Below, one piece after another: positions 26,023 through 44,393 of a DNA stretch of 46,478 nt. A program made the position numbers and the translations under genes. The notes under the pieces were generated by a model. That model was not told where the DNA came from and ran no database searches. It worked only from the letters and a program-made list of their open reading frames with translations. Position 1 is the first letter of the stretch. Each line of letters opens with the position of its first letter. This DNA is from a virus, in the IMG/VR virus record IMGVR_UViG_3300047470_000128, positions 1 through 46,478 of that record; one strand, written 5' to 3'.

Positions 26023-26919
26023 TTACCCGTTCTGGTCGGGGAAATAGTTCACGCCGGGGATCATGGCGATACCGACGCAGCGGCAGAGCGGGTGGTGCTT
26101 GCCCGGGTGCAGGTTGGTGACGCCTTTCCAGGTCGCACCCTCCGCCACCTTGTAAACCCCTGGCCCGTAGCCGATGTCCTGCCGCGCAATCCCCCAGCAG
26201 CTGATCTTGGCGTTCGGGTATTTGCCGGAAGGGTTACCGGATACCCGCACGTCGTCAGCATCCTGGGCCTTGTAGTGCACGATCCCGGCTGCGGTCTGGC
26301 GCTGCCGGGTCAGGTCTGAATTGAGTTGCGACACCTGGTCCCGCGCAATCAGCTTTGCCCGGCGCGCACTGACGCCCGTCTCTTCCTGAATCTGCTTGGC
26401 GATGGTGGTAGGCGCGAGGCCGTCCTTCATGCCACCCAGCACAATCGTCTCGACCTTTTTGAAGTAATCGGCCGGGATGGACTTGATCAGGTTGACGTTC
26501 TCGGCAGTGGAGGCTTCCAGATAATCCGTCATGCCCTTGGGCTTGGTGATCAGCTGGAAGTCGATGCCCACGGCCTTGTTGATCGAGTCGCGGAAGTCCT
26601 CAGCGTTGTCGGCTTCGGCACGACTGATGGTCGTTGCGGCTACCCGCTGGATCTGCGCCTCGAACAGCGGAAAGGTGAAGCGCTGGGAGACGCTGCGAAT
26701 GGACTTGAGGATCTCGTCCGTCCAGCTGCCATCGAGCGTCACGCGGCTGTCTGCGATGTAGGCCGGCTTCAGGCGCTTCAATGCCGGCTCAAGCGAGGCG
26801 ATCAGCTCGGAGGCCATCGCCCTGACCAATGCACGCAGCTGACCGAGGTAGTAGCGCTCAGCCTCCTTGCTGGGCATGACCGGTTTAGGCGCCTTCGGCT
26901 TTTTCCGGCGTTTTTCCAT
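26023..26919 (-). CDS. MuF-like minor head protein
   Basis: 298 aa from ATG 26919 (MEKRRKKPKAPKP...), which overlaps the portal end by 35 bp; ATG 26877, just after the portal stop, is an alternative. Residues from about 180 (LAPTTIAKQIQEETGVSARRAKLIARDQ) and the C-terminal Cys/His region (HPGKHHPLCRC) are the head-morphogenesis (SPP1 gp7/Mu gpF) signature. It is likely a few copies per head near the portal. Confidence 0.82.
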   Translation of the reverse strand: MEKRRKKPKAPKPVMPSKEAERYYLGQLRALVRAMASELIASLEPALKRLKPAYIADSRVTLDGSWTDEILKSIRSVSQRFTFPLFEAQIQRVAATTISRAEADNAEDFRDSINKAVGIDFQLITKPKGMTDYLEASTAENVNLIKSIPADYFKKVETIVLGGMKDGLAPTTIAKQIQEETGVSARRAKLIARDQVSQLNSDLTRQRQTAAGIVHYKAQDADDVRVSGNPSGKYPNAKISCWGIARQDIGYGPGVYKVAEGATWKGVTNLHPGKHHPLCRCVGIAMIPGVNYFPDQNG

Positions 26920-28291
26920 CAGCGCCTGGTTCGTAGCCGTCAGTTTCGCCAAGGGAGAAACCGGGGAGGTCTTTGCCGTCGTCGCCAAGGCCATTGTCCT
27001 GATCCTTCTCCAGCTGCTCTTGAGCCTTGATCTGCTCATCGGTGATGGCGTAGGTGCCTTTCGACTGTGCGCGGCGCATGGCATGGCTTGGGCGAATCAC
27101 ACCGCTCTCGATGTTCATCGCATCCGCCTGGGCGTCGGCAAGGTCTTCCTGAGCCTGCTCATTGCCCGAAGGCAGTGACAGCGGATTCCACTCGAACTCG
27201 ATGCCTTCCGGGTACGTGCCCAGCGCCGAGCGGATCAGCACCTGGTCCAGCGCCTCAAGGTCTAGACGCATCTGGCCGTCCTGCTTGCCCTTGATGGTGC
27301 CGTGGTACGTCTTCAGATCGCCTTCACCGGTTGAGCTGAGGCCTGCTGCTGATTGGCCCCACAACTCGGTCACCGGCATTTCAGCGGCGCCTGCCGTCCA
27401 CACCATGAACTGCTCCATGATCTGGCTCAGACCGGAGAAGGCGATGCTCTTTCGGTCAAACGTCTCGTTGCCCTCATCCAGCAGAGCCAAGTTCACGATC
27501 GACTTCATCATGCCGAACAAGCGATACCGCTCGGTGATCATGTCTTTCGACGGACCCGCAAGCTCGCTCTTCAGGTTCTTCACGCTGATCGTGTCGACGT
27601 TGGCTTCCAGTACCAGGGAGGCGATACCGCCCTTGGTAGCCACCACGTCGCGCAGGTCAGACATGCAGCGGCGCAGGCGACTGTCACCCCACCCCTGTTC
27701 GAACATGCGCATGCGGCGCGGCAGGCGAGCCCCAGTCCGGCGAACGATGTGGCTGTAGTGAATCTTCTGGGTGCCGTTAACCATCATGTAGAACTCGGGC
27801 ATCATCCAGTTCGGCTTGAGCGGGTCGGTCAGGTTGAATTCAATCGGCTGGATATCCCAGCGATCGAGCACAACCAAATTCTTCAGCCCGCCCTTCTTGA
27901 CCTTGTCCAGGTCGAGCGGCTGACTCAGATCCTGCTTGGTCACCATCAGCAGTGCAGCACCACCGTACAGGTCCGCCCAGCAGCAGGTATCCAGATAGGC
28001 TTGCTGCACACCGAGCCGGCGCTCTTCGGATTCGATCTGCTTGGACTGCTTGCCGCTGAACTTGCGCCATTCACGCAGCGCGTCTTCGTTCGGCTTGTCC
28101 ACGATGCGGCGGGCGATCCAGTTGGACTGATACGCCGCTTCCAGCTCGAACTGGTTCACGAACTCGAAACCGAAAGAGTTGTGCGTGCGCTTGTCTCGAC
28201 CGGTCCCGAGATTGGCTACCAGGTTCGAGAGGCTGTCAGTCGTGACTACGCCACCCGAATGCACCTGAATTCGTGGTTTTGACTCGGTCAT
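26885..28291 (-). CDS. portal protein (DUF1073)
   Basis: 468 aa. FGFEFVNQFELEAAYQSNWI, ARRIVDKPNEDALREWRKF, AYLDTCCWADLYGGAALLM and PVTELWGQSAAGLSSTGEGD are typical of DUF1073 portals. The C-terminus is acidic and ends without a fused enzyme domain. The portal is the dodecameric DNA gate of the head. Site A of the CGCGACAC palindrome family lies 18 bp before its ATG (RBS AGGACC). Confidence 0.9.
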   Translation of the reverse strand: MTESKPRIQVHSGGVVTTDSLSNLVANLGTGRDKRTHNSFGFEFVNQFELEAAYQSNWIARRIVDKPNEDALREWRKFSGKQSKQIESEERRLGVQQAYLDTCCWADLYGGAALLMVTKQDLSQPLDLDKVKKGGLKNLVVLDRWDIQPIEFNLTDPLKPNWMMPEFYMMVNGTQKIHYSHIVRRTGARLPRRMRMFEQGWGDSRLRRCMSDLRDVVATKGGIASLVLEANVDTISVKNLKSELAGPSKDMITERYRLFGMMKSIVNLALLDEGNETFDRKSIAFSGLSQIMEQFMVWTAGAAEMPVTELWGQSAAGLSSTGEGDLKTYHGTIKGKQDGQMRLDLEALDQVLIRSALGTYPEGIEFEWNPLSLPSGNEQAQEDLADAQADAMNIESGVIRPSHAMRRAQSKGTYAITDEQIKAQEQLEKDQDNGLGDDGKDLPGFSLGETDGYEPGADGKTPEKAEGA

Positions 28292-28308
28292 GATTTAGGT
28301 CCTATTCC

Positions 28309-28344
28309 GCGACACGTTTTCGCGATGCTTGTTTTGTGTCGCGA
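28309..28344. promoter_or_regulatory. palindromic site A (CGCGACAC-N20-GTGTCGCG)
   Basis: CGCGACAC at 28309-28316 and GTGTCGCG at 28337-28344, exactly 20 bp apart; the plus-strand left half continues GTTTT and the right half is preceded by TTTT. It sits directly upstream of the portal ribosome-binding site, so it could be an operator for head-gene expression or an RNA hairpin in the leader. Confidence 0.75.
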
Positions 28345-28347
28345 GAT

Positions 28348-28386
28348 ATCTCATCAGCGCACTCAGCGAATGCACTCATGAGATAC
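28348..28386. repeat. second inverted repeat with CACTCA direct repeats
   Basis: TATCTCAT (28348-28355) is mirrored by ATGAGATA (28379-28386); the 23-bp spacer carries two GCACTCA copies, the first with a G-C-G-C lead. It adjoins site A on the side away from the portal, in a 120-bp gap without genes that is a candidate control region for the head genes. Confidence 0.5.
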
Positions 28387-28411
28387 GGCGGCCATGTAGA
28401 CCGCCTCAGCT

Positions 28412-28711
28412 TCAATCCCCCGGCGTCCATACAAGCGCCTTGTGCTTGCGGTTCGCCATGGGCAGGAGGTTGCAAGTTACGGGTTTAGGGCTAGGCCCCA
28501 GGGGATTCGGTGGAGGGTGCTGCTGTAGTGCCTGACCTACAGCAATCGGATCTGGCGGCGATGGCAACTTGGGGATGTTTGCAACGAAGGCATATTCGTG
28601 CCCTGCGTCGCGGTAGGAATGCTCATCCACAATCTCGACATTGGGCATCTTGGCAGCGAGCAGTCCCGCCAGGGCCAGGCTAAGCGCACCACCCATCAAA
28701 AGAATTCGCAT
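28412..28711 (-). CDS. small exported or membrane-anchored Pro-rich protein
   Basis: 99 aa. Residues 3-20 (ILLMGGALSLALAGLLAA) are a signal peptide or anchor; the remainder is soluble with a Pro-rich stretch (SPPDP, QHPPPNPLGPSPKP). It lies downstream of holin-type genes, so an envelope role in lysis is possible. It resembles a spanin in architecture but has no lipobox Cys, and a real spanin pair exists at 4936-5433. Confidence 0.6.
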   Translation of the reverse strand: MRILLMGGALSLALAGLLAAKMPNVEIVDEHSYRDAGHEYAFVANIPKLPSPPDPIAVGQALQQHPPPNPLGPSPKPVTCNLLPMANRKHKALVWTPGD

Positions 28712-28714
28712 GAA

Positions 28715-28873
28715 TCACCGCACCTTGATCTTTGTTCCCCGCCCAACCCAGTACGCCACCTTGTCGGGGTCTGGGTTCAGTCCGGTCAGATTGGAGACGA
28801 GCTGAACACCGTGCAGGTACGCATGCAGCCACCAAGCGAGCCTGATGGTCACCTTGATCTCTGCGACCTTCAT
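28715..28873 (-). CDS. 52-aa conserved small phage protein
   Basis: It starts at ATG 28873, one base after the stop of the upstream holin-like gene, and ends 3 bp before the next start. The sequence (MKVAEIKVTIRLAWWLHAYL..., LNPDPDKVAYWVGRGTKIKV) has an aromatic amphipathic N-terminal helix. The tight packing in the operon and good composition support it as a gene; the function is unknown. Confidence 0.65.
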   Translation of the reverse strand: MKVAEIKVTIRLAWWLHAYLHGVQLVSNLTGLNPDPDKVAYWVGRGTKIKVR

Positions 28874-28874
28874 G

Positions 28875-29069
28875 TCACTTCACCAGCTTCGGCTGAAGGA
28901 CCACGCGAGCGATCATCACCAGCAGACCCAGCACGCCATAGGCCACTGGTGGCAGCACAGCCTGAAGTTGCGGCATCAGCTGTTCAGCTACCCCCAGGGC
29001 AGCAATGGCGCCGCCGGCCTGAACGCTGGTCATGCTCAGCGCTTGCTTCCAGTTATCGATCAGTTGCAT
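28875..29069 (-). CDS. small holin-like membrane protein
   Basis: 64 aa with AGGAG 6-7 bases before ATG 29069. It has two hydrophobic segments (about 15-34 and 40-58) with a short charged end (QPKLVK). The N-terminus MQLIDNWKQALSM is like the DUF7940 putative holins found in many Pseudomonas phages. It follows the S-type holin by 3 bp and may be a second holin or an antiholin. Confidence 0.7.
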   Translation of the reverse strand: MQLIDNWKQALSMTSVQAGGAIAALGVAEQLMPQLQAVLPPVAYGVLGLLVMIARVVLQPKLVK

Positions 29070-29072
29070 TGG

Positions 29073-29405
29073 TCACTCCTGCCGCTTGGGCAATTTGAAG
29101 TCGGTGAATCGGTCAGCCAGGGCGGCAACCTTCTTCACGCCGAGGGTGCCGATGCAGGCGCCGACGGCAGCTGCAAGGCTCGAGGGGAGGTTGAAATATT
29201 CGAGCAGCGGGAATGCCCCGGCTGTGATCGCTCCACACAGGCAGGACTCAAGCAGGGCCTGTCGCCGCCCTCCGCCGCCGTAGATGACGCGCAAGAAGGC
29301 GATCCAGCACGACAGCGCCGCGGCATAGAGCATCGGTGAGTTCTGGCTGAGCCAGGCCATGACGATGAGCCAGGTTTCCGGGTTCTTCTCTGGCATATGT
29401 GACAT
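29073..29405 (-). CDS. lambda S-type holin
   Basis: 110 aa from ATG 29405, with GGAGG 7 bases upstream. There are three hydrophobic stretches, a YGGGGRRQALLESCLCGAIT motif and a charged C-terminus (DRFTDFKLPKRQE), as in lambda family holins. The start reads MSHMPEKN: two Met codons three apart recall the lambda S107/S105 dual start, where the longer product is an inhibitor, but here only the first has a clear ribosome-binding site. Confidence 0.8.
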   Translation of the reverse strand: MSHMPEKNPETWLIVMAWLSQNSPMLYAAALSCWIAFLRVIYGGGGRRQALLESCLCGAITAGAFPLLEYFNLPSSLAAAVGACIGTLGVKKVAALADRFTDFKLPKRQE

Positions 29406-29501
29406 CCAGCGTCCTCCCTTGCGGGGAGCGAGAATAGGTCCGGCACTCCCCGCCTCTCTCATCCGCTCGGAGCAAGGACGATGGCGTGGGTGCCAGATAC
29501 G

Positions 29502-29526
29502 AAAAAGCCCCTGCGGATGCAGAGGC
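29502..29526 (-). terminator. intrinsic terminator upstream of the holin
   Basis: On the - strand GCCTCTGC pairs with GCAGGGGC (one G-U) over a 4-nt loop and is followed by UUUUU. It is the second of two tandem leftward terminators between the small membrane genes and the holin. Confidence 0.78.
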
Positions 29527-29591
29527 CTGAATGAGGCCCTCTCCGGGCGCGACGATTAAATGCGCCGATGGATGAGAGAAACTGGAGACGC

Positions 29592-29616
29592 AAAAAACCC
29601 CGCACTTGGCGAGGTT
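29592..29616 (-). terminator. intrinsic terminator after the 116-aa membrane gene
   Basis: On the - strand AACCTCGC pairs with GCGGGGTT (one G-U) over a 5-nt loop, followed by six U. It ends the transcript of the two membrane genes at 29645-30167. Confidence 0.8.
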
Positions 29617-29644
29617 TGGTGAGTCATTGGTGCTTTTGAGCGGC

Positions 29645-29995
29645 TTAGTCAGGCGTTGCGGCAGGCGCCAAGGAGGGAGACGCGACTTTCTTACGCAAAT
29701 CTTTGGGGGCTATGGTTTCCCCTAGGACGAAGAAAATCCCCACGCATCCGGCCAATGCCATCGACCCCTTTGCACCCATGGCGACATTAAGCAGGCCGGA
29801 GCTAAAAGGCGATACTGCCAAGGCGAAGAATGGAACCATAGTCGCACCGTTCAGGAAGGAGATGACGCACTCATCCTTCATGATGCTCCGGCTTTGCATG
29901 AGCCATCTCAACACGACACAGCAAAGACCTACAACGACGGTCCAAGCATCTATGGTCCATTCAGTTACTAGCGATAGGAATGGACCAAATTCCAT
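29645..29995 (-). CDS. multi-pass membrane protein, unknown
   Basis: 116 aa with three hydrophobic segments: about 13-34 (TIDAWTVVVGLCCVVLRWLM), 48-63 and 72-91 (AMGAKGSMALAGCVGIFFVLG), then a charged Ala/Pro tail. It begins one base after the stop of the 56-aa gene. The pair has a candidate promoter of its own and is bounded by terminators, so it forms a self-contained unit. Superinfection exclusion or lysis control are possible; the function is not recognised. Confidence 0.65.
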   Translation of the reverse strand: MEFGPFLSLVTEWTIDAWTVVVGLCCVVLRWLMQSRSIMKDECVISFLNGATMVPFFALAVSPFSSGLLNVAMGAKGSMALAGCVGIFFVLGETIAPKDLRKKVASPSLAPAATPD

Positions 29996-29996
29996 G

Positions 29997-30167
29997 TCAG
30001 ATGATGGCCAGGGATTTGATAGCTACCAAAGCGGACCCAGCACCGACAACAGATGCAAAGCTCATGCTGCCCAAGGAAGAGGTATCAATACCGAACATGC
30101 CGGCTATGGCTACACCGACGATAGCGCCAGAGAACATCAGACGCAAAGTCCTGAAATTCAGAGTCAT
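29997..30167 (-). CDS. 56-aa membrane protein
   Basis: ATG 30167 with AAGGAGAAGTAAT upstream. Two hydrophobic stretches occur, about 10-27 (LMFSGAIVGVAIAGMF) and 38-56 (ASVVGAGSALVAIKS). It is translated just before the 116-aa membrane protein (stop and next start are one base apart), so the two probably act together. It looks like a small two-pass holin or exclusion protein, but no family is recognised. Confidence 0.6.
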   Translation of the reverse strand: MTLNFRTLRLMFSGAIVGVAIAGMFGIDTSSLGSMSFASVVGAGSALVAIKSLAII

Positions 30168-30209
30168 ATTACTTCTCCTTGTGTGGGCGGGCTGCTTGAA
30201 AGCGGGCGC

Positions 30210-30238
30210 ATTCTGCTAGACGCCCTTATGTTATGCAA
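30210..30238 (-). promoter_or_regulatory. candidate leftward promoter
   Basis: On the - strand TTGCAT (30233-30238) and CAGAAT (30210-30215) are separated by 17 bp, upstream of the 56-aa gene at 30167. The -10 is imperfect. Confidence 0.4.
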
Positions 30239-30361
30239 CTTCTACGACAGCAAATCTAGCCCCGAATTCGACGAATTTTGGAGAATTTAAAAGGCATTTC
30301 GAGGGCTTTTATCGAAGATGATATCAATATGATCTCGAAATCCTATCGAATCGCAGAAGTT

Positions 30362-30397
30362 CGCGACACGTTTTTGCAAAAAATATTTTGTGTCGCA
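30362..30397. promoter_or_regulatory. palindromic site B
   Basis: CGCGACAC (30362-30369) and GTGTCGCA (30390-30397), again 20 bp apart; the left half continues GTTTT and the right half is preceded by TTTT as at site A. One base of the right arm differs. It lies in the early/late gap, about 125 bp upstream of the candidate promoter. Confidence 0.72.
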
Positions 30398-30457
30398 ACA
30401 CCCTTAATCGGAGGTGTTTTCACACTTCCACCCATTCGGACTTAATGTGGAACGAAC

Positions 30458-30489
30458 AAAAAAGCCCAGCGGTTAGGCCGGGCTTTTTG
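30458..30489. terminator. bidirectional intrinsic terminator
   Basis: AAAAAAGCCC (from 30458) and GGGCTTTTTG (to 30489) flank a short GC-rich loop, giving U-tracts in both directions. It closes the leftward early operon, whose last gene ends at 30556. Confidence 0.85.
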
Positions 30490-30555
30490 TTGTCACCTAC
30501 TACGTGCGCAGGAATGACAGGATGGGTAGATAATGGCTCATTGGCTCAATGCCAG

Positions 30556-31101
30556 TCAAGCAACTTCTGACATCACAAGGCCTTCATGCTCAAGTATGTG
30601 CTGAGCCTCCATAAGGGCCAGATCCACGCTGCTCTCCAGAGCCTTTCGAATGTCCCTCCTCCACCGCTCCTGCGTCTTGATCGGATGAGGCTCGTTCGAC
30701 CAGTTGTCCATTTCGTACCACCCGGCCGGCAGTACGTTGGTCGAGCGCTTCCCGTCCGAGCCCGGCAACTTTGGCAGCGCCCAGGTGACGATGGCGCAAT
30801 GCAGAAACCGCTCCGGCGCCGGCGACCGCATGACCTTCGTCAGCTCGGCAATGGCAGAGTGCTTGCGCTCGGTGTGCGTCGAGAACTTCGCCACCAATGC
30901 CCGCCAATGCGCAGCAGACAGCGACTTGTGCAATCGGCCAAACACCCAGCAGTCGGTGAGGAAAGCGGCCTCCTTGCCAACGATCTCCCCCTTCTGCTTG
31001 GCGCACTGCACCTTGGGTTCAAAGTCACAGCCACCGGCAGAGTTGATGGTCTCGGCGGCTAGCGCCCGAACAACTGCGGATACCACGTTGCGATAGGTCA
31101 T
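30556..31101 (-). CDS. probable late regulator (Q position)
   Basis: 181 aa from ATG 31101, overlapping the NinG stop (ATGA) with GGGAG upstream. Helical, with CDFEPKVQCAKQKGEIVGKE early, a WRALVAKFSTHTERKH block (about 67-82) and YEMDNWSNEPHPIKTQERWRRDI later. It is a common Pseudomonas phage protein at the end of the early operon. The position immediately after NinG, before a terminator and the late genes, is that of antiterminator Q, but the sequence does not prove it. Confidence 0.6.
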   Translation of the reverse strand: MTYRNVVSAVVRALAAETINSAGGCDFEPKVQCAKQKGEIVGKEAAFLTDCWVFGRLHKSLSAAHWRALVAKFSTHTERKHSAIAELTKVMRSPAPERFLHCAIVTWALPKLPGSDGKRSTNVLPAGWYEMDNWSNEPHPIKTQERWRRDIRKALESSVDLALMEAQHILEHEGLVMSEVA

Positions 31102-31679
31102 GCTGCTGCTCCCTTCAATTCTCTGGTCAGTGCCCGGTAATCGGCCTTGATGGTCTTGATCTCGTCGACGGTGTACTTTCGGGCCGAATGAGGCCCTTCG
31201 AGCCACTCGACTTGTGCGTCGCCGATCAGCTGTAGGAGCGAAAGGCGGTAATTCACCAGGTTGCCGGACAGGTGCGTATTGCACGGGGCGCACTGCTTCC
31301 ACACGTTGAGCGGCTCGAATCGCAGTTCGGGGTTCGCTCCCACAGAGCGGTAGTGCCCAGCGTGGTATTGGCCTTCGTGGTGGCGACCGCAACTCACACA
31401 AGGACGATCGGCGTCACGCAGGCGAATCCATTCGTTGAATGCGGCCTGGGCTTCGCGCAAGTGATCCGCCCTGCTCTTCAGCTTCTCCTTGCGGACCTTG
31501 ATCTCCCGGCGTTCGATCTGTGCCAGCGACTTCCGCGCCTTCTCCTGATTCACATCCTTGATGGCCAGGCCGCACTTCGGGCTGCACACGGCCTGACCCA
31601 GGCGCTGCGGCGGGAAGCTGATGCCGCAGGCCGGGTTTTTGCACTTCTTCGGTCGAGGCTGTTTTGCTGGAAGCCTCAT
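31098..31679 (-). CDS. ninG: NinG recombination protein
   Basis: 193 aa. N-terminal zinc-binding Cys pattern (KCKNPACGISF ... VCSPKC), a long basic helix (about 48-85), and an HNH-like C-terminal part with CVSCGRHHEGQYHAGHY and QCAPCN. This is the NinG/Rap family that helps lambda Red recombination as a structure-directed nuclease. It is coupled to both neighbours by 4-bp overlaps. Confidence 0.9.
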   Translation of the reverse strand: MRLPAKQPRPKKCKNPACGISFPPQRLGQAVCSPKCGLAIKDVNQEKARKSLAQIERREIKVRKEKLKSRADHLREAQAAFNEWIRLRDADRPCVSCGRHHEGQYHAGHYRSVGANPELRFEPLNVWKQCAPCNTHLSGNLVNYRLSLLQLIGDAQVEWLEGPHSARKYTVDEIKTIKADYRALTRELKGAAA

Positions 31680-32146
31680 GCAGCCACCTCGCCCAGCAGA
31701 TCCGTAAAGACCACACCGCGCTCCGTGAAATCGGCCACGATGCGATCGGTGTAGGCGATGCCTTGGGCGCGACTGAACAACCGGGTCACCGGGAAACCAT
31801 CCGGCCCGAACAGAGGGCAGCTACCCATCAGATCGAGCTTCTGCTCGTAGGACAGGTGCCGCATGGTGCGATACCAGGAGTTACGGAAGTCGTCTTCCTC
31901 GTTCAGCAGGATCTGGACCCCGAAATGCAGCTTGCAGTAACGGCGCGCGTCGTCGACGTCGCCGATCTGCGTCATCGCGGCGATGCGCTGGTACAGCGAA
32001 AACCACAGGGCGTTCTGGTCCAGGGTGCGATCCTTGCCCGGGCGCAGCGACACGACGACGAACTTCTTGTCGCGGTACATGGTGGTCAGGCTGGTGATGG
32101 CCTCGGAAAGCTTGGCCTGGCTGTTGACGCTGATCTTGTCAGTCAT
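31676..32146 (-). CDS. ninB: NinB-like recombination protein
   Basis: 156 aa. The central RTLDQNALWFSLYQRIA (about 39-56) matches the LDQN motif of NinB, a single-stranded-DNA binding modulator of phage recombination; the remainder is more divergent. It lies directly before NinG as in lambdoid nin regions. Confidence 0.65.
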   Translation of the reverse strand: MTDKISVNSQAKLSEAITSLTTMYRDKKFVVVSLRPGKDRTLDQNALWFSLYQRIAAMTQIGDVDDARRYCKLHFGVQILLNEEDDFRNSWYRTMRHLSYEQKLDLMGSCPLFGPDGFPVTRLFSRAQGIAYTDRIVADFTERGVVFTDLLGEVAA

Positions 32147-32741
32147 GCTTGGCCTCCTTGATCATTTCGGTCTGCTCATCAGCCCAGGGAAACCGCGCGT
32201 GCTCGCTGAAATCAATTTCCCAGTGCGCAGGCTCGGTCATTCCGACGTTGTCGTAGTGCGCCTCACAGTGACGGCACTCGAACACGTAAAAGCCCGGTCC
32301 TTGCTCGAAGTAGTCCTCGGCATTTTCGAGCACCTCGCCCTGTATCAGAGCGATTTGATCGACGCAGATTGCGCCGTGCACCGCGCTGATGAATGGGGTG
32401 TCACCCTCGCCGAGAAACACCTGAACCCATACCGACTCATCCGGATTGCGCCATGCGTCGGCGTCATATTGGGTCTGCTCCAAATCATCGCGCAGCGCCT
32501 CGTTCTCGGCCTGGAGCTGGTCGCGTTCGGCAGTCAGCGCATTCCGCTTATCCCCCAGATGCTCAACCAGATCATTGGATTCATTGAGGTCAGACTTCAG
32601 CCGCTCGTTCTCGGCGATCAGGGCCAGGACCGTGGCAGGGCTGGCTGCACGATCAAATGCGACGGTGCATGGCAGATGCGGCGAATCATCGGATGGCATT
32701 GCAGCCACTGCCAGGCGCTTCAGTTCGCTGTAATCGCTCAT
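32139..32741 (-). CDS. Ea22/Ead-like protein
   Basis: 200 aa. After a short N-terminal motif (SDYSELKRLAVAA) there is a coiled coil (about 40-90, ENERLKSDLNE...ENEALRDDLE), then a separate C-terminal domain with FECRHCEAHYDN, a possible metal site. This layout (Ead-type start, coiled coil, swappable C-terminus) is typical of accessory genes in lambdoid early regions. The role is unknown. Its start overlaps the upstream 31-aa gene by 4 bp. Confidence 0.68.
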   Translation of the reverse strand: MSDYSELKRLAVAAMPSDDSPHLPCTVAFDRAASPATVLALIAENERLKSDLNESNDLVEHLGDKRNALTAERDQLQAENEALRDDLEQTQYDADAWRNPDESVWVQVFLGEGDTPFISAVHGAICVDQIALIQGEVLENAEDYFEQGPGFYVFECRHCEAHYDNVGMTEPAHWEIDFSEHARFPWADEQTEMIKEAKHD

Positions 32742-32833
32742 GCCGTCACCGCCATTGTGAACAGGACGCAGAACACGCCGATGGAGAAACCAGCCATGGT
32801 GCAGGCCAGAGTGATTTTGGATTGGATAACCAT
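32738..32833 (-). CDS. 31-aa single-pass membrane peptide
   Basis: ATG 32833 has AGGAGG 7 bases upstream and overlaps the P stop (TGATG). The sequence MVIQSKITLACTMAGFSIGV... is one hydrophobic helix. The strong ribosome-binding site and exact overlaps at both ends support it as a translated gene. Confidence 0.6.
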   Translation of the reverse strand: MVIQSKITLACTMAGFSIGVFCVLFTMAVTA

Positions 32834-33627
32834 CAGGAAGCCTCCTTGCCGCGCTGCGGCTCTCGCTTGATGTTCAGTCGTGCCAGCAGCTGCGCACGCG
32901 CGGCGCCGCCGGATGATGGAATGCCCTGAACGTCCAACAGCCGAACCTGACGCTGATTGGCGAATTCCTCGGCCAGTTCCAGCTCGGTCTTCTGGCCGTC
33001 GTGGCCGATGCCAATGGCGATGTCCTCGAGCGGCAGACCCGCTACTAGGCGGCGAATGGTGATCTCGTAGGCCCGGTCGAATACCTCGCTGGCCTTCTCC
33101 GGGATCAGGTCGCCGAGGTTGTGCATCTCGCATTGCAGCGCGGCGTGGCGAACGGCCGGATGGGACCAGGTGCGATCGCCAAACCTGCTTGGGTGGGAGT
33201 TTTCCAGCGCCTCGCGAAATGCCTTGTCGTGAGGCGGGATGCCCAGCATTTCCGGGGTCGGCTGGCAAAGCTTGATGAACCTGCCCACGCTCGGCATAAA
33301 GTCCGTGCCCAGCGAACGGCAGCGCTCAACGCCGAATCGGATCTGCTCCAGTTGGGTGATCCCCTCGACGATGAATGCCTTGATCCAGCTGCGCTTGGCA
33401 GAATCCAGCGCGTCATCGGTCGGCCAAGCCTGCTTCCAAGCCGGGAAGATGGCCTGCAGTTCCTTGAACAAGGCGTTGACGACATCGATCGTTCCTGGCG
33501 GCAGGGTCTTGGGCATGACAGGTATCGCCGGCGGCTGGTAATTGCCGACAGCAGCGCGCAGGTCAGTGGTCGCACCGGTAACCTTCATGAGTTGAGCCGC
33601 GCTCCTCGGCGGCTTTGGCTTGTTCAC
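32833..33627 (-). CDS. replication protein P-like (helicase loader)
   Basis: 264 aa. NALFKELQAIFPAWKQAWP (about 50-68) and the RFGVERCRSLGTDFMPSVGRFIKLCQP block (about 96-121) are typical of lambda P homologues, which bring the host DnaB helicase to the O-bound origin. The C-terminal part is basic. It overlaps the O-like gene by 4 bp. Confidence 0.82.
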   Translation of the reverse strand: MNKPKPPRSAAQLMKVTGATTDLRAAVGNYQPPAIPVMPKTLPPGTIDVVNALFKELQAIFPAWKQAWPTDDALDSAKRSWIKAFIVEGITQLEQIRFGVERCRSLGTDFMPSVGRFIKLCQPTPEMLGIPPHDKAFREALENSHPSRFGDRTWSHPAVRHAALQCEMHNLGDLIPEKASEVFDRAYEITIRRLVAGLPLEDIAIGIGHDGQKTELELAEEFANQRQVRLLDVQGIPSSGGAARAQLLARLNIKREPQRGKEAS

Positions 33628-34415
33628 AGACCACCGTCCAGGTTCTCAGCCCAGGCTCGGTTATCGAAGTCGGGGCCATTGGCCTGACGACGAGGCGGGA
33701 ACTGGTGAACATTGTTCGCAGCGGGCGCCGGCTCGGGCACTTCGTCCTCCCAGCGCTTGCCGTTGAGCCAGGTCGACGGGTGCGGGATGAACTGGCCGTT
33801 GTCCTTGGTCCATTCGGTGTTGACGCTCTGCGCGCCCAGGGCCTGAACCATCACCTCGAACAGCTCGGCGGTCAGGGTGAGCTTGTCCCACGCCTTGCGT
33901 GCAGCCTCCTTGCCAACCTTGCGGGGATACAACGACCAGAACCGGGCGAACAGCTCAGCTGAATCGACTGCATCATCGCTAGAAGGCTTTTGATCTTTAT
34001 CTTCTCTTCTCTTCTCTTCTCTGGTCCGCAATTTGTCCGCATCACTAGCGGACACATTTCGGACGTTTTTCGTCTTTCTGTCGTTCCGCTTGCGCTCGTT
34101 ATCGTTGGCGCGGCGCTTTGCACTTGCCCCGTTATGTTCGTCAAAGCGAGGCATTACAAGGCCCTCATCCTCCATGCAGGCCCACTCAACGTCGATCATG
34201 GCCTGCGTGAAACCCGGCCACCCGACAACAGCATCCATCGCATCAGTGGTGTAGCCAACGAGCACACCGTCATCGCAATGAGTGTCAAAAGTGCTCCAGG
34301 CAACATGCAGTCCACCAATGATCCGAAGTCTGTCCGCTTTCAATGCGGACACCATGCGGAAAACTTTCGGATGGGTTTGAAGTTCGATGCGCATTTTGAT
34401 CCAGTCCCCGGCCAT
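33624..34415 (-). CDS. replication initiator O-like
   Basis: 263 aa from ATG 34415, which overlaps the antirepressor stop (TAATG). The N-terminal winged-helix-like domain (GDWIKMRIELQTHPKVFRM ... GGLHVAWSTFDTHCDDG) is seen in phage O-type initiators; a basic linker (KRRANDNERKRNDRKTK, then REEKRREDKD) leads to a C-terminal domain (FARFWSLYPRKVGKEAARKAWDKL, about 173-196) common in replication proteins. Two TGTCCGC-N7-GCGGACA palindromes lie inside the gene, a candidate origin. Confidence 0.78.
   Translation of the reverse strand: MAGDWIKMRIELQTHPKVFRMVSALKADRLRIIGGLHVAWSTFDTHCDDGVLVGYTTDAMDAVVGWPGFTQAMIDVEWACMEDEGLVMPRFDEHNGASAKRRANDNERKRNDRKTKNVRNVSASDADKLRTREEKRREDKDQKPSSDDAVDSAELFARFWSLYPRKVGKEAARKAWDKLTLTAELFEVMVQALGAQSVNTEWTKDNGQFIPHPSTWLNGKRWEDEVPEPAPAANNVHQFPPRRQANGPDFDNRAWAENLDGGL
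34034..34054. repeat. TGTCCGC-N7-GCGGACA palindrome, copy 1
   Basis: Perfect 7-bp arms with a 7-bp spacer inside the O-like gene; an additional half site GGTCCGC lies at 34023-34029. A purine run (AGAGAAGAGAAG on the - strand, 34001-34020) adjoins it. Origin iterons inside the initiator gene are usual in lambdoid phages. Confidence 0.6.
34331..34351. repeat. TGTCCGC-N7-GCGGACA palindrome, copy 2
   Basis: The same 7-7-7 arrangement with a different spacer, 297 bp from copy 1 and in the same codon phase. Both encode V-S-A-x-x-A-D-(R/K), so protein constraint could contribute. Confidence 0.6.
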
Positions 34416-35176
34416 TACACGGCCTCCCGAAGTTGGTATTGAGCCCACAGGCCAGCCACCCAAGTGACGCCCTTGGGGGTGAATTTGGACTGGTTGAAGG
34501 CATGCCCGCCGTCAGTGGTGCCAGCTCGCACCTCAAAGCGCCCTGCGTCGATGTGAGGCTGATACGCTTGCCATTCGCCGCCCATGCGGTACATGATTTT
34601 TTTGTCGATCAGGAATTCACGGAACCGGGACTCGTTAGCCTTTAGCAGCTTGGCGGTCTGACGGAAGCCCTTAAGGCCGGTGGAATCGACGTAGTTGTCG
34701 ACGAAGGCGATCTTCGGCGCCGCTTCAATGAGGGCCTGGCTGGCGATCTGCTGGAGTTCGAATTGCTCGGCCCAGGCACGCGCGGCAGCGGCTGGATTGG
34801 AGAAGTCGGGTAGCGTTGCAAGAACTCGCGGCCCCTCGAGCTCCTTCAGCTTTTGCAGCACGGATCGGCGAACGGCTTTCGATTCGCGCATGCCGACGAG
34901 CATGCATTGATCCAGGGTCAGGTCGTAGCTGGCCATGTCCACGCGGCTTTGGGGGTGTGCAATTGTTTTGCACTCCCCCAGCTCATCACCGAGCTCATCT
35001 TGCACGCGGATAATGAACTGGTCGTTCCTGACTTTCGGCTCGCCAGCCTGGCTGCGCGCCTCGTTGACCATGTCGCGAAGGTCGATGCTCGAAATCGTCC
35101 GCGACACGTTTTGCGATTGCATAAAACGTGTCGCGACCTTGTTCTGGGGATTGCTGGTTTCTATTGAATGGTGCAT
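34415..35176 (-). CDS. phage antirepressor / KilA-C-type regulator
   Basis: 253 aa from ATG 35176, preceded by GGAG at 6 bases; an ATG at 35212 lacks this, and ATG 35122 lies inside palindrome C. The N-terminal part (QNVSRTISSIDLRDMVNEAR, about 22-41; RNDQFIIRVQDELGDE; YDLTLDQCMLVGMRESKAVRR) is a Rha-type regulatory domain, and the C-terminal part (TAKLLKANESRFREFLIDKKIMYRMGGEWQAYQPHIDAGRF) is an antirepressor KilA-C domain. Such proteins relieve repression and aid lytic entry. The palindrome over codons 14-26 suggests autoregulation. Confidence 0.82.
   Translation of the reverse strand: MHHSIETSNPQNKVATRFMQSQNVSRTISSIDLRDMVNEARSQAGEPKVRNDQFIIRVQDELGDELGECKTIAHPQSRVDMASYDLTLDQCMLVGMRESKAVRRSVLQKLKELEGPRVLATLPDFSNPAAAARAWAEQFELQQIASQALIEAAPKIAFVDNYVDSTGLKGFRQTAKLLKANESRFREFLIDKKIMYRMGGEWQAYQPHIDAGRFEVRAGTTDGGHAFNQSKFTPKGVTWVAGLWAQYQLREAV
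35100..35135. promoter_or_regulatory. palindromic site C (perfect 13-bp arms)
   Basis: CGCGACACGTTTT (35100-35112) and AAAACGTGTCGCG (35123-35135) around a 10-bp spacer; the 8-bp cores are again 20 bp apart. It lies inside the 5' part of the antirepressor gene, with an internal ATG codon (35120-35122) at its centre. It is the most symmetric member of the family. Confidence 0.8.
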
Positions 35177-35201
35177 GATTCGCTCCACAGCGTTTGAAGA
35201 G

Positions 35202-35229
35202 AGCCGGGTCACTACCCCGGCTTTTTTTT
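35202..35229 (+). terminator. intrinsic terminator, rightward
   Basis: AGCCGGG (35202-35208) pairs with CCCGGCT (35216-35222) followed by eight T on the + strand. No + strand gene precedes it here, so it would block antisense transcription running against the early operon. On the - strand there is no comparable U-tract. Confidence 0.7.
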
Positions 35230-35242
35230 GCCTACTGAAAAC

Positions 35243-35291
35243 CTCAGTCCCTTAAAAGGACCCTTTCTTTGGTCCCTAATAAGAGACTGAG
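35243..35291. repeat. nested inverted repeats after the 70-aa gene
   Basis: CTCAGTC (35243-35249) and GACTGAG (35285-35291) enclose GGACC (35258-35262) and GGTCC (35271-35275). Leftward, the inner hairpin is followed by UUUUAA, so it may act as a partial terminator between the small regulators and the antirepressor. Confidence 0.5.
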
Positions 35292-35294
35292 CGC

Positions 35295-35507
35295 TTACCT
35301 TCGCGGCCCGAACTGGACTACGTTGTCCTCATTGGATTTCCCCCTTCGCGAGAGAAATCGACCGGCCTTGCGCAAGATCTGCGATGCCAGCTCATCAGTG
35401 CTAACTCCCATCTCCGAGGCCCAAAGTTCCAGGTCCTCGAAGTCGTTCTTCCTGAACTGCGCGACCTCAACCTCGCGGATCGGCGTTGCATCGTTTGCTG
35501 CTGGCAT
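35295..35507 (-). CDS. small ribbon-helix-helix-type regulator
   Basis: 70 aa from ATG 35507 with GGAGG 4 bases upstream. A short strand (REVEVAQFRKND) is followed by two helices (FEDLELWASEMG, VSTDELASQILRKAGRF), a ribbon-helix-helix-like plan, and a basic tail. It is similar in design to the 59-aa protein at 35805-35984. Probably a DNA-binding regulator; the target is unknown. Confidence 0.55.
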   Translation of the reverse strand: MPAANDATPIREVEVAQFRKNDFEDLELWASEMGVSTDELASQILRKAGRFLSRRGKSNEDNVVQFGPRR

Positions 35508-35526
35508 CGGTCCTCCCATGACCTAT

Positions 35527-35733
35527 TCAGGCCCTGAGCTTTTTTTCGCTAATTAACGGCAGGTAGCCGTGCTCTTTCTTGAATGCCAAGGCGGCGAGAA
35601 TGATTTCTCGAGCCAGCACGCTGTGTTGCGCCTTGAGCTCATGGGCGTACCCCTTGAGCTCAAGGAAGTCTTCGTCATCCAGACGAACCTTGACCTGGTG
35701 GTCGTGGCGGTGGGCTTTGTCGTCATAGGCCAT
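35527..35733 (-). CDS. Arc-like ribbon-helix-helix protein
   Basis: 68 aa. HRHDHQVKVRLDDEDFLELKGYAHE and VLAREIILAALAF form the strand-helix-helix of Arc/MetJ-type repressors. It is paralogous to the protein at 36003-36191 (shared pattern H-D-x-x-(V/I)-K-V-R-x-D-(D/E), later V-L-x-R-E-(I/L)). Probably a small early-region repressor. Confidence 0.7.
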   Translation of the reverse strand: MAYDDKAHRHDHQVKVRLDDEDFLELKGYAHELKAQHSVLAREIILAALAFKKEHGYLPLISEKKLRA

Positions 35734-35804
35734 CAGGTGTTCCCCTGCTTGCTTCTGTGATCGTGTGGTCTGGATGAACTTTGCAGTTACGCTTCAGGGC
35801 CTGC

Positions 35805-35984
35805 TCAGTCCCTTCTTCGGAAAGGCTTTACTGCTCCCCGCGGATTTCGGGGTTTTGTCCGTTGAGCCAGCTCTCGACGCATCAACTCGGCGGCCAGTTC
35901 TTCGGGGGTTACCCCCCTCTTCTCTGCCTCACGCTCAAGCTGCTCCATCTCTCGCTGGCCCAACTGGACCTGTTCGATAGGCAT
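35805..35984 (-). CDS. small regulator-like protein
   Basis: 59 aa from ATG 35984 with AAAGGAGG upstream. MPIEQVQLGQREMEQLEREAE is followed by GVTPEELAAELMRRELAQR and a basic tail (KPRNPRGAVKPFRRRD). The E-E-L-A-x-x-L-x-R helix and size match ribbon-helix-helix antitoxin/regulator types. The DNA-binding role is inferred. Confidence 0.6.
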   Translation of the reverse strand: MPIEQVQLGQREMEQLEREAEKRGVTPEELAAELMRRELAQRTKPRNPRGAVKPFRRRD

Positions 35985-36002
35985 GGGGCCTCCTTTGGGC
36001 CT

Positions 36003-36191
36003 TCAAGCCACTTGGTGTTCGTCGGTATTCTCCGAAGCCAATGCAGCAAGCTGCGCTTCCAGCAGCTCACGGCACAAAACCGCTCGCTGAGTTCGGTGAA
36101 ACTTGGCCAAAGCCTGGATTAACTCGAAGGTGTCCTCGTCAACCCGGACCTTGATCTCTCGGTCATGTAAGTGCTTGGGATTGGCATACAT
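36003..36191 (-). CDS. Arc-like ribbon-helix-helix protein
   Basis: 62 aa. LHDREIKVRVDEDTFELIQALAK and AVLCRELLEAQLAAL give the Arc-type strand-helix-helix. It is the first of four small regulator genes behind cro and a clear paralogue of 35527-35733, suggesting local duplication. Confidence 0.7.
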   Translation of the reverse strand: MYANPKHLHDREIKVRVDEDTFELIQALAKFHRTQRAVLCRELLEAQLAALASENTDEHQVA

Positions 36192-36221
36192 GCGGGTCTT
36201 GCTCCTTGCGATTGAAATTGA

Positions 36222-36416
36222 TTAAGCGGCAGATTTTTGAGATGGGAATGGACGCTGCTCTTGAGCCGACAAGCTGCCGTCGTCCCCGAGGGTCACGAAC
36301 ACATCACGGCCAACACGGATCGCCTTACTAAGGGCGCCTTGCGTGCAGCCAAGCATTTGCGCGGCCTTCGTATGGCCATGCTGTTTTGCAAATTCGGTAA
36401 GCGGGATACGGCGCAT
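36222..36416 (-). CDS. cro: Cro-like repressor
   Basis: 64 aa from ATG 36416, with AGAGGA 7 bases upstream; the longer frame to 36686 would read through the operators. FAKQHGHTKAAQMLGCTQGALSKAIRVGRD (about 9-38) is a helix-turn-helix of Cro type. It is divergent from cI across three operators. It should bind those operators and favour the lytic state. Confidence 0.85.
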   Translation of the reverse strand: MRRIPLTEFAKQHGHTKAAQMLGCTQGALSKAIRVGRDVFVTLGDDGSLSAQEQRPFPSQKSAA

Positions 36417-36448
36417 AGCGACGTCCTCTACATAGGTTTCGCGCCCAG

Positions 36449-36514
36449 TATGACCGCCGGTATTGTTATCAGTCAATACCGGCGATATTGGTTGAGCGAA
36501 TACCGCAGGTAATA
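36449..36514. promoter_or_regulatory. OR operator cluster with PR and PRM
   Basis: Three 17-bp sites of consensus CAATACC-N3-GGTATTG: 36449-36465 (3 mismatches), 36474-36490 (CAATACCGGCGATATTG, 1 mismatch) and 36498-36514 (3 mismatches), with centres 24-25 bp apart as in lambda OR. Leftward PR: TTGACT (36471-36476) and CATACT (36447-36452), 18 bp apart. Rightward PRM: TTGGTT (36488-36493) and TAATAT (36510-36515), 16 bp apart, which would start cI mRNA a few bases before its ATG (leaderless, as in lambda). Confidence 0.85.
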
Positions 36515-36524
36515 TGATTTGCCG

Positions 36525-37343
36525 ATGACTAAAGACTCTCGAAGACTGCCGCTTGCCGAATGGCAATTGGAAGACAGCGACCGCCTGAAAGAAATTTTTC
36601 AGAGGAAACGCGGCGCGCTGAAACTCACCCAGGAGAAGCTTGCTGCAGAGCTTGGTGATGGTGTTACGCAAGGTGCTGTCAGCCACTTCATGAACCGACG
36701 CACCGCACTGAGCCTAAAGGCCGCAGCAGTGTTTGCGCGCATGCTTGAAGTACCAGTGTCTGACTTCAGTCCGACACTTGCTGAGCAACTGGAAAAACTG
36801 AGCTCATCGATAAGCCCCTCGCATGAGCAAGGCATATCGAGAGAGCGTTTGGGCGGTGTCGATGCCGCAAATACGCCATTTCCTGCTGGCGATGATGTCA
36901 ATCACAGCCTTGATGACCGATACGCTTTCATTCCCCAATACGACGCGAAAGCCGCAGCCGGTATTGGCCACGAGAACCCGCACGTAGAGGTTCGCTCTAC
37001 CCTGGCGTTCAAGCGCGATTGGTTGAAGGTTAAGGGGGTTAACCCCAATCAGCTCGTGGTTATCTATGCCGATGGCGAGAGCATGTGGCCCACGATCAAC
37101 GATCACGACGTTCTGCTAATCGATAAGTCGAAGATCGATCCAATCGATCGGCAGGTCTTTGTGCTGGCCAGTGCGGACAAGGGTGCGATTGTTAAGCGTC
37201 TGATCAAAACGGCCTTGGGCGGCTGGATCATCAGAAGTGACAATGAAAACAAAGATGAGCATCCAGACCTGATCCTGTCGCGGAAGGAAATCAACGAGCA
37301 CCGGATCATCGGCCAGGTCATATGGCGAGGCGGGGATTTGTAA
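36525..37343 (+). CDS. cI: CI-type repressor with S24 self-cleavage domain
   Basis: 272 aa from ATG 36525. N-terminal helix-turn-helix (about 33-60, LTQEKLAAELGDGVTQGAVSHF); a linker; and a C-terminal LexA/CI peptidase fold with cleavage site Ala145-Gly146 (KAAAGIG), nucleophile Ser186 (GESMWPT) and Lys224 (GAIVKRL). It maintains lysogeny and is inactivated by RecA-stimulated self-cleavage, so the prophage should be SOS-inducible. There is no good ribosome-binding site; a leaderless transcript from PRM is likely. Confidence 0.93.
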   Translation: MTKDSRRLPLAEWQLEDSDRLKEIFQRKRGALKLTQEKLAAELGDGVTQGAVSHFMNRRTALSLKAAAVFARMLEVPVSDFSPTLAEQLEKLSSSISPSHEQGISRERLGGVDAANTPFPAGDDVNHSLDDRYAFIPQYDAKAAAGIGHENPHVEVRSTLAFKRDWLKVKGVNPNQLVVIYADGESMWPTINDHDVLLIDKSKIDPIDRQVFVLASADKGAIVKRLIKTALGGWIIRSDNENKDEHPDLILSRKEINEHRIIGQVIWRGGDL

Positions 37344-41463: not shown

Positions 41464-43097
41464 AAATTCACAACGTAGCTCAAGGCTCCGCCGAGTGGCA
41501 TGCCCTGCGCAGCCAGCACTTCACCGCCTCTGAAGCCCCGGCAATGATGGGTGCGTCGAAGTACCAGACCCGCACCGATCTGCTGACGCTGAAGAAGACC
41601 GGTATTGCGCCGGAAGTCACGCAGTCGCAGCAGTACATCTTCGACAAGGGTCACGCCACCGAAGCGATGGCCAGGCCGTTGGTTGAGGTGATGATCGGTG
41701 AAGAGCTGTACCCAGTCGTGGGCACCGAGGGCAACCTGCTCGCCTCGATGGACGGCGCGACGATGCTCGGCGAGACGCTGTTCGAGCACAAGCTCTGGAA
41801 CGAATCATTGGCCGCCCAGGTGCGCGCTGAAGACCTGGGCCCTCACTACTACTGGCAGCTTGAGCAGCAGCTGTTGGTGAGCGGCGCCGAGCGCGTGATC
41901 TTCGTTTGCTCCGACGGTACCGCCGAAAACTTCGTCAGCATGGAATATCGCCCTGTCGCCGGTCGTGCGGCTCAATTGATCGAAGGGTGGAAACAATTCG
42001 AGGCGGATCTTGCTGGCCACGAAGTGGCGGACGCCCCGTCTATCGTCGTCGGCAAGGCCCCAGACGAGCTGCCAGCGCTGCGCATTGAGCTGACCGGCAT
42101 GGTTACCGCCAGCAACCTGAAAGTGTTTGAGGAATCGGCTCTGGCGGTCATCGATTCGGTGAAAACCACGCTGACCACCGACCAGGACTTCGCGGACGCG
42201 AAAAAGGCGGTGAAGTGGTGCGGAGACGTTGAGGATGCGGTCACCGCGGCGAAGAAGCAGGCGCTGTCCCAAACCCAGACCATCGACGAACTCTTCTGCT
42301 CGCTGGACCGCATCAGCAAGCACGCCCGGGAAACTCGCCTGAAGGTCGACAAGTTGGTGAAGGCTCAAGAGCTGCTGGTGAAGACCAACATCAAGCAGAA
42401 GGCCGAACAGGCGTTGACCGATCACGTCGCAGCCATCAACAAAACCCTGGGCAAAGTGACCCTGCCCGCAGTGGCTGCAGACTTCGCTGGCGCCATGAAG
42501 AACAAGCGCACCATCGCCAGCCTGCAGGATGCCGTTGATACCGAACTGGCCCGGGCGAAGATCGACGCCAGCCAGACGGCCGACGCAATTCGCGTGAACC
42601 TCGAAAGCCTTCGAACCCTGGCTGCCGACCACGCCTTCCTGTTCGTCGATGCCCAGCAGTTGGTCATGAAAGCCAACGACGACCTGGTCGCGCTGATCAA
42701 GGTTCGGATTTCTGAGCACCAGAAAGCCGAAGAACAGAAGGCCGAAGCCCAGCGCGAGCAGATCCGGAAGGAAGAACTGCAAAAGATCGAGGATGCCAAG
42801 GCGAAGCAGGCGGTTGTCGAGCCGGTTGCTGAGCCTGCGCCGGTTGTGACGCCGGCGCCGATCAAGTCCGCACCGGTGGCACAGTCGACACCCAAGTCGG
42901 TGACCGCGACAGCGCACCAGGCGGCGAACCTTCAGGCCGAAGTATTCGACCTGCTGGACCTGGTCAAAGCCGTGGCGTATGGGCAGGCGCCTATCTCCGT
43001 GTTGACCGTCAACTGGGAAGCGCTCGATGCGATGGTTGCTGATCAGGGCCAAACCTTCAGCATGGCCGGCGTGAGGCTGGTCAAGGCGGCAGCATGA
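41460..43097 (+). CDS. YqaJ-type exonuclease with long C-terminal extension
   Basis: 545 aa. Residues about 8-190 form the lambda-exonuclease/YqaJ domain: QGSAEWHALRSQHFTASEAP, Asp98 in SMDGATM, Glu109 and Lys111 in FEHKLW, and HYYWQLEQQ. From about 210 a long coiled-coil, helical region follows, with a Pro/Val-rich hinge (about 455-480) and a small end domain. Typical viral YqaJ exonucleases are 200-350 aa, so this is a fusion. It makes 3' single strands for Bet, whose gene it overlaps by 4 bp. Confidence 0.85.
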   Translation: MKIHNVAQGSAEWHALRSQHFTASEAPAMMGASKYQTRTDLLTLKKTGIAPEVTQSQQYIFDKGHATEAMARPLVEVMIGEELYPVVGTEGNLLASMDGATMLGETLFEHKLWNESLAAQVRAEDLGPHYYWQLEQQLLVSGAERVIFVCSDGTAENFVSMEYRPVAGRAAQLIEGWKQFEADLAGHEVADAPSIVVGKAPDELPALRIELTGMVTASNLKVFEESALAVIDSVKTTLTTDQDFADAKKAVKWCGDVEDAVTAAKKQALSQTQTIDELFCSLDRISKHARETRLKVDKLVKAQELLVKTNIKQKAEQALTDHVAAINKTLGKVTLPAVAADFAGAMKNKRTIASLQDAVDTELARAKIDASQTADAIRVNLESLRTLAADHAFLFVDAQQLVMKANDDLVALIKVRISEHQKAEEQKAEAQREQIRKEELQKIEDAKAKQAVVEPVAEPAPVVTPAPIKSAPVAQSTPKSVTATAHQAANLQAEVFDLLDLVKAVAYGQAPISVLTVNWEALDAMVADQGQTFSMAGVRLVKAAA

Positions 43098-43793: not shown

Positions 43794-43874
43794 TGCGCAG
43801 GACGGCACGCGTGCAACAACGCAAACGACAAGCCTGGCTGGCATTGCCGGCCAGCGGCATTGAAGAGGTATGCC

Positions 43875-44393
43875 ATGGCGATGACAAATCAGCAGCGATC
43901 CACCAAGGCAGCGCAGAAACGTGCAGCCCTCGGCGAAGAGGAATTGAGGCTACGTGCGCGCATCGGGACGCGCCAAGCATTAACCGAGCTGATGCAGTGG
44001 GCCGGCATTACTGAGCAAGGCGAGGCGCTGACCCTGATGATTCATCACGTCCAGGGCCTCGGGAGTTCCGGCGCTCTACGGTTTCTTGGTTCGCGACACA
44101 AAATTGAAGATAGCCAAAACGTGGCGTGCATTACAGACAACGCACTGATCAGGTTCGGCGTGAGGCCGGGAACGCTGACGGCCTTGAATGATCTCGTCGA
44201 GTGGATTGGCGCGCAAGACCAGAGCTCGGCAATGAGGCTCATCATTCATACGCTCCATGAAGCAGGGCCTAATCGGGCACTGCGATTCTTAGCGATGCCG
44301 CCACGCAAGCCATACGAAATACCCGCACACATCGCGGCAAAGCTACAGCTCGCCTACAACCGCGAAGCCCTTCGCATCTGTCACGACGAATAA
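43875..44393 (+). CDS. protein with two tandem ribbon-helix-helix-like repeats
   Basis: 172 aa from ATG 43875, GAGG 6 bases upstream. Two copies of a ~50-residue unit follow each other (about 32-82 and 98-150): G-T-x-x-A-L-x-x-L-x-x-W-x-G ... Q-x-x-A-x-x-L-x-I-H ... A-L-R-F-L. Each begins with a short strand and continues as two helices, so the chain could be a single-chain ribbon-helix-helix dimer. A degenerate copy of the CGCGACAC palindrome lies in the linker-coding DNA. The function is not known. Confidence 0.65.
44092..44128. promoter_or_regulatory. degenerate palindromic site D
   Basis: CGCGACAC (44092-44099), then 21 bp ending CAAAAC, then GTGGCGTG (44121-44128). On the opposite strand it reads CACG TTTT ... 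TTTTGTGTCGCG like sites A and B. One arm has two mismatches and the spacer is 1 bp longer, so binding is uncertain. It lies inside the duplicated-domain gene. Confidence 0.4.

Follow-up and report, generated by a model that had tools for sequence, protein, structure and literature searches.

The operator of NikR, GTATGA-N16-TCATAC, is a long-gapped palindrome read by ribbon-helix-helix (RHH) domains, and the operators of Arc/Mnt and AmrZ are shorter. In phage P22, the antirepressor gene ant is controlled by Mnt, Arc and Sar (PMC2629481). Here we describe a split palindrome in a 46,478-nucleotide stretch of viral DNA (IMG/VR record IMGVR_UViG_3300047470_000128, positions 1 to 46,478; the window), where one of its copies lies inside an antirepressor gene. 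The element is an inverted repeat of CGCG[A/C]CAC-G-(A/T)3-4 with 20 bp, or sometimes 21 bp, between the cores; 20 bp is the dominant spacing and 21 bp forms a second class. The element is genuine and conserved, and it probably serves as an operator. There is about an even chance, in our judgment, that the palindromes are operators of a phage-borne or co-inherited DNA-binding regulator that acts as a dimer or tetramer, a reading in which we infer both protein binding and the direction of regulation.

A split palindrome at fixed places in Pseudomonas phages

When at most one mismatch was allowed and an A/T tract was required in both halves, there were 88 sites in 35 phage records, the window included, versus none in the same sequences reversed. 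An earlier reading of the window from its letters only (the sequence-only reading) had called the pattern far beyond chance. This holds for the strict form, but the count within the window with up to three mismatches is only modestly above shuffled sequence (three versus a shuffle mean of 0.54, with 2 of 100 shuffles reaching three). Among viral contigs the exact form matched at least 120 stretches; CGCGCCAC-N20-GTGGCGCG was found in at least 120 stretches and the 21-bp version likewise in at least 120. In 84,980 species genomes, the exact 20-base form was present at 119 loci. The 80 of these that were listed are all from Pseudomonas except for one contig labelled Streptomyces, which has a PHROG_5439 gene as well and is possibly a contaminant. 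The element is carried by temperate phages of Pseudomonas, in their hundreds, and by one satellite record. The latter, KU708005 (phiAH14b), is satellite-like, 16.8 kb long and from the host of phiAH14a; its CGCGCCAC-class elements are at 10506 and, with one core degenerate, at 4695. Further copies lie near int/xis-type genes and in phiAH14a, phiAH14b and PseuP_222. A full-text search of the literature with TGTCGCGACA gave no paper on this sequence among the matches listed, which concern unrelated subjects.

The element occupies three fixed positions: the 5' coding leader of the antirepressor gene, 2-3 bp past the stop codon of the holin gene and the 3' end of the PHROG_5439 gene. In the majority of the antirepressor loci examined it begins approximately 38-60 nt into the gene and codes for the peptide (V/L)A(T/P)RF..S.NV(S/A)R, after which different domains follow. 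In the late region the holins that precede it are non-homologous and the genes that follow it are unrelated, usually starting within about 20-30 bp. In PHROG_5439 genes it codes for PRHEY.IPENVSRK or related peptides, and the tails beyond it differ. The element is constant while antirepressor second domains, holins, following genes and PHROG_5439 tails are swapped. The spacing is also kept in relatives; when antirepressor loci were found via a neighbouring protein domain and not via the site, 80 of 80 had the element at exactly 20 bp. The link between the antirepressor and late genes that had been drawn from the window holds for these phages in general. One record (G014) has two antirepressor genes, each with its own element.

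In the window the element is present at four sites (Table 1). The sequence-only reading had placed B and C correctly and A wrongly, at 28309-28344. It had given all three the same arms exactly 20 bp apart, which is true of A and C, whereas the right arm of B has one mismatch. The left half of 13 bases, CGCGACACGTTTT, is the same in A, B and C as it had reported, and C is indeed a perfect 13-bp inverted repeat, with 13-bp arms around a 10-bp centre. Site A is upstream of the portal start codon, at a distance of 16 bp rather than 18 bp; in a relative (G012) the same element is upstream of portal and the equivalent open reading frame (ORF) also starts 16 bp from it. The sites had been described as control points. 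C has a predicted promoter, which is antisense, but A and the late sites are at a lysis/head gap inside an operon and have no recognisable promoter. Site D, at the end of the first domain copy of the PHROG_5439 gene, was overlooked in that reading; it is within the gene of what had been called the duplicated-domain protein.

Table 1. Sites A-D and other features of the window
Feature	Position	Strand	Remarks
Site A	28308-28343		CGCGACAC-N20-GTGTCGCG, exact match; separates lysis-region genes from portal start, late leftward operon
Site B	30362-30397		CGCGACAC-N20-GTGTCGCA, one mismatch (right arm); early/late leftward gene gap
Site C	35100-35135		CGCGACAC-N20-GTGTCGCG, exact match; antirepressor coding leader, - strand codes VATRFMQSQNVSR
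Site D	44092-44128		CGCGACAC-N21-GTGGCGTG, degenerate 21-bp-spaced copy within PHROG_5439 gene, at the usual place for such genes
Antirepressor	34415-35176	-	PHROG_63 anti-repressor Ant (1.5e-48), Pfam ANT/KilAC (ANT 3.2e-23); likely ATG start 35176
Putative antisense promoter	35151-35179	+	TTGCTG (-35, 35151-35156)-17-CATGAT (-10, 35174-35179); -10 overlaps antirepressor start codon
Putative Sar-like antisense RNA, about 45 nt	35186-35232	+	Intrinsic terminator stem 35202-35222, T run 35223-35230; start point inferred
PHROG_4113 small protein	35527-35733	-	RHH-like by sequence inspection; upstream of antirepressor
Second PHROG_4113 protein	36003-36191	-	
PHROG_5439 protein	43860-44393	+	Two copies of predicted RHH-like domain, seemingly a tandem duplication; candidate binder
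Portal gene	26885-28291	-	First head gene past site A; annotation of the sequence-only reading
Holin (PHROG_126)	29073-29462	-	
PHROG_3412 protein, function not assigned	30556-31101	-	Early operon end, after NinB and NinG
Terminator-like hairpin	30459-30488	-	Between PHROG_3412 and site B

Selection on the nucleic acid and the alternatives to an operator

Codon usage within the element is skewed. In antirepressor genes Thr is ACA in 23 of 23 cases (background 12%), Ala is GCG in 29 of 29 (27%) and Val is GTG in 29 of 29 (34%); in PHROG_5439 genes Arg is CGA in 17 of 19 (12%) and Ser is TCG in 17 of 17 (23%). Because unusual codons (CGA and ACA) are fixed in the element, selection acts on the nucleic acid and not on the peptide. 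The two arms also change together. Core position 5 in the 80 antirepressor loci is A/A in 65, C/C in 15 and mixed in none, and mixed arms make up 12 of 281 unique 20-bp elements; related sites have common ancestry, so independent paired changes are fewer than these counts. A direct hunt for mixed-class cores gave 30 loci, of which 12 have an A/T tract in both halves, versus 118 of 126 matched C/C sites.

Paired change of the arms fits a symmetrical protein site or an RNA stem alike. The sequence-only reading had kept a structured RNA as its alternative to an operator, and a hairpin in sense transcripts could control translation, processing or termination. The absence of mixed arms in the 80 loci would suit this, as would the predicted fold of copy C (-21.1 kcal/mol) and the location of the late site just upstream of the next gene start, near the ribosome-binding region. 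However, matching arms are expected of a dimer site too, and the folds are weaker at A (-12.7 kcal/mol), B (-10.5 kcal/mol) and D (-5.7 kcal/mol, z -0.55). The inner tracts are unpaired in the late and PHROG_5439 copies and in A, B and D, and the A/T tracts are found in either orientation with AAAA and TTTT interchanging. Of the inner five A/T-rich bases, 3.40 are complementary versus 3.13 in shuffles at a spacing of 20, and 2.18 versus 2.19 at a spacing of 21. Single-arm deviations are mostly not wobble pairs. A search of Rfam 15 over 28000-36500 (evalue mode) gave no match above the gathering score; a Trp_leader match near B (25.8 bits, gathering 41) was below threshold and covers a terminator. 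The arms covary but the inner A/T tracts need not pair, and this favours a DNA site over an RNA hairpin, which we consider unlikely.

An explanation of similarly low probability is that the element is mainly a recombination linker at module borders, enabling exchange of genes or domains. Similarity breakpoints between records do cluster at the elements, with 174 within 40 bp versus 37.6 for random positions and 104.5 for gene starts (sd 20.7), and these are the points at which holins, the genes behind them, antirepressor domains and PHROG_5439 tails switch. The enrichment is strongest at sites that lie in neither antirepressor nor PHROG_5439 genes (124 versus 61.9 within 60 bp), but it is weak at antirepressor sites (60 versus 41.5) and absent at PHROG_5439 sites (19 versus 33.3). 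Such clustering may also result from conservation. A linker role leaves the 20/21-bp spacing, the paired arm changes, the kept A/T tracts and the fixed rare codons unexplained.

It is also rather improbable that a protein encoded by the Pseudomonas host reads the element. The near restriction of the listed genome loci to Pseudomonas would agree with a host reader, and no single detected gene is common to the element-bearing phages. Against this, 20 Pseudomonas genomes had no A/T-tract site that recurred at one chromosomal location. The pattern was not equally frequent at random places in these chromosomes; A/T-tract sites were mostly in prophage-like clusters of two to three, 5-10 kb apart. 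The sole match that recurred across hosts, CACGCCACGGC..., is without an A/T tract and looks like a coding coincidence. In addition, the class of the core varies between phages, and both classes occur within one host genome (G039). Finally, a target of a tyrosine recombinase, transposase or similar enzyme is very improbable; the 13-bp arms around a 10-bp centre at site C are loxP-like, but the copies lie at fixed places and in coding sequence, and centres and inner tracts differ among copies of one phage, which would bar recombination between them.

If the palindromes are operators, one regulator would contact two inverted half-sites, each approximately CGCG[A/C]CAC-G-(A/T)3-4. Several operons could then be under its control: the right early operon at C with the antirepressor, the late operon at A and at B, which is near where this operon is expected to begin, and the left operon at D with PHROG_5439. 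The likeliest action would be that of a protein roadblock that holds back downstream genes, because most sites lie inside operons and not at recognisable promoters. At the antirepressor, the regulator may also favour a Sar-like antisense promoter with its -35 only 9-15 bp away, and antirepressor output would thereby be limited twice. Both the roadblock and this effect on the antisense promoter are proposals. A more extended proposal, which we offer tentatively, is that a single phage-borne regulator, acting at palindromes embedded in coding sequence and at module borders, restrains the operons jointly through roadblocks and antisense RNA, and that satellites such as phiAH14b carry sites to follow their helper.

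The antirepressor start and candidate readers of the element

The start of the antirepressor gene is probably a Sar-like control region, judging from its sequence. In 39 nonredundant antirepressor loci, an antisense -35-like hexamer is usually 15 bp (or 12 or 9 bp) from the element and is followed, after a 16-18 bp spacer, by a -10-like hexamer over the start codon. The mean best promoter score at this constant offset is 8.92 versus 7.51 in shuffles. An intrinsic terminator is predicted on the antisense strand in 33 of 39 loci versus 0.00 in shuffles, with several different, perfectly paired stems. In the window, the putative antisense RNA has a predicted fold of -20.4 kcal/mol (z -4.5); its promoter copy is weak and was not flagged by a general promoter scan. 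We considered MR13 (MT104473, 7079-7873) as an element-free control, but the gene annotated as an antirepressor looks like a replication protein on inspection, making it uninformative. That annotation is probably wrong.

The PHROG_5439 protein is a candidate, and only a candidate, for the binder of the element. Its AlphaFold model (pLDDT 84.8, pTM 0.50) was aligned by VIA-align with the RHH domains of NikR and AmrZ first (Z 4.4-4.6, 44-50 residues aligned, rmsd 1.2-2.9), a result in favour of an RHH fold but short of proof. The sequence-only reading had named an RHH protein or the duplicated-domain protein among possible regulators; the RHH-like prediction and the 21-bp copy in its own gene are in favour of the latter, but it was not found in every element record. 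Searches for the protein used a single sequence. PHROG_5439 was found in 26 of the 35 element records plus one weak hit (G005), and phiAH14a also has a matching ORF, in its left part. Conversely, by our own reading, 25 of 30 PHROG_5439 records have one or more element-like N20 sites.

In counts tallied by hand, the A or C class of the two 20-bp-spaced sites in a phage mostly agrees. Records found by A sites are A/A in 19 cases and mixed in two (G008 and G025, both without a detected antirepressor), and those found by C sites are C/C in 18 cases and mixed in three. For records found by PHROG_5439, the two 20-bp-spaced sites per phage are A/A in seven, C/C in seven, discordant in two and mixed-arm in one.

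Several results weigh against the operator reading. The PHROG_5439 model has weak structural matches, with Z values under 5 and Foldseek E values above 1 (none reached E 0.001), and a comparison with PDB sequences gave a single match at E 0.85. PHROG_5439 was not detected in the element-bearing records G008, G025, AH14b, G010, G012, G019 and G067, some of which are fragments. The agreement in class may reflect co-inheritance or linkage. Moreover, the PHROG_5439 site is often of the other class than the remaining two, so that both classes are possible in one phage, contrary to what would be expected of one strict regulator. Among the records compared, no gene convincingly tracks the A or C class. 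At the late and PHROG_5439 sites, the Sar-like promoter geometry is not above shuffled controls.

Other candidates were rejected. The antirepressor itself had been proposed to read the element, but the site remains where the second domain of this protein has been swapped. For the host protein BswR, the octamer that the paper concerned has in common with the element is part of a PCR primer, and the protected site differs. The left-operon family that adjoins PHROG_5439 was considered as a tracker of class; nearest neighbours agree in 11 of 11 cases, but the long forms mix (A: G004, G021; C: G062, G077). Members of this family (for example, G010 42203-42445) have a common N-terminal part and short or helix-turn-helix-like long C-terminal parts, and are domain-shuffled.

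The sequence-only reading had set the element apart from CI/Cro and LexA operators. Sites A-D lie away from the CI gene (36519-37343), and the core is by inspection unlike CTG-N10-CAG, a comparison that covers position and core sequence.

Near site B, the PHROG_3412 gene occupies the slot of Q in lambdoid phages, and its product is a possible late regulator. To the right of B (30397-30490, + strand) are a promoter-like TTCACA-16-CTTAAT and a terminator-like hairpin.

If the operator reading is true, many Pseudomonas prophages would share an unrecognised regulatory code that joins the antirepressor switch, the recombination operon and the head genes, and the sequence of the element would be a simple tag in the search for a new regulator. 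It would also place a Sar-like antisense switch outside Salmonella phage P22 and provide a handle on how phages swap modules yet keep control sites.

Comparison with known systems

Compared with tyrosine-recombinase core sites, the element differs in that its spacers vary between sites of one phage. It resembles the boundary or linker sequences of mosaic phages in that neighbours change at it, but it is a constrained palindrome that is repeated within one genome, coding regions included. Like the operators of NikR-type RHH regulators it is a long-gapped palindrome, and the RHH domain of NikR aligns with the model of PHROG_5439. By contrast, PHROG_5439 is without an apparent NikR metal-binding domain, the core and the 20/21-bp gap differ, and binding by PHROG_5439 is a prediction. 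The likeness to Arc/Mnt and AmrZ is that RHH-type proteins are encoded near the antirepressor and that AmrZ is among the best structural matches of PHROG_5439, whereas the operators of these proteins lie at promoters. As a comparison with the immunity I region of P22 (ant, arc, mnt and sar), the locus described here has an antirepressor gene, small RHH-type proteins upstream and a predicted antisense promoter and terminator across the start. The antisense RNA differs from P22 Sar in being a sequence prediction, and a 36-bp split palindrome in the coding leader, with further copies in the left and late operons, is an addition to the account of P22 given in PMC2629481.

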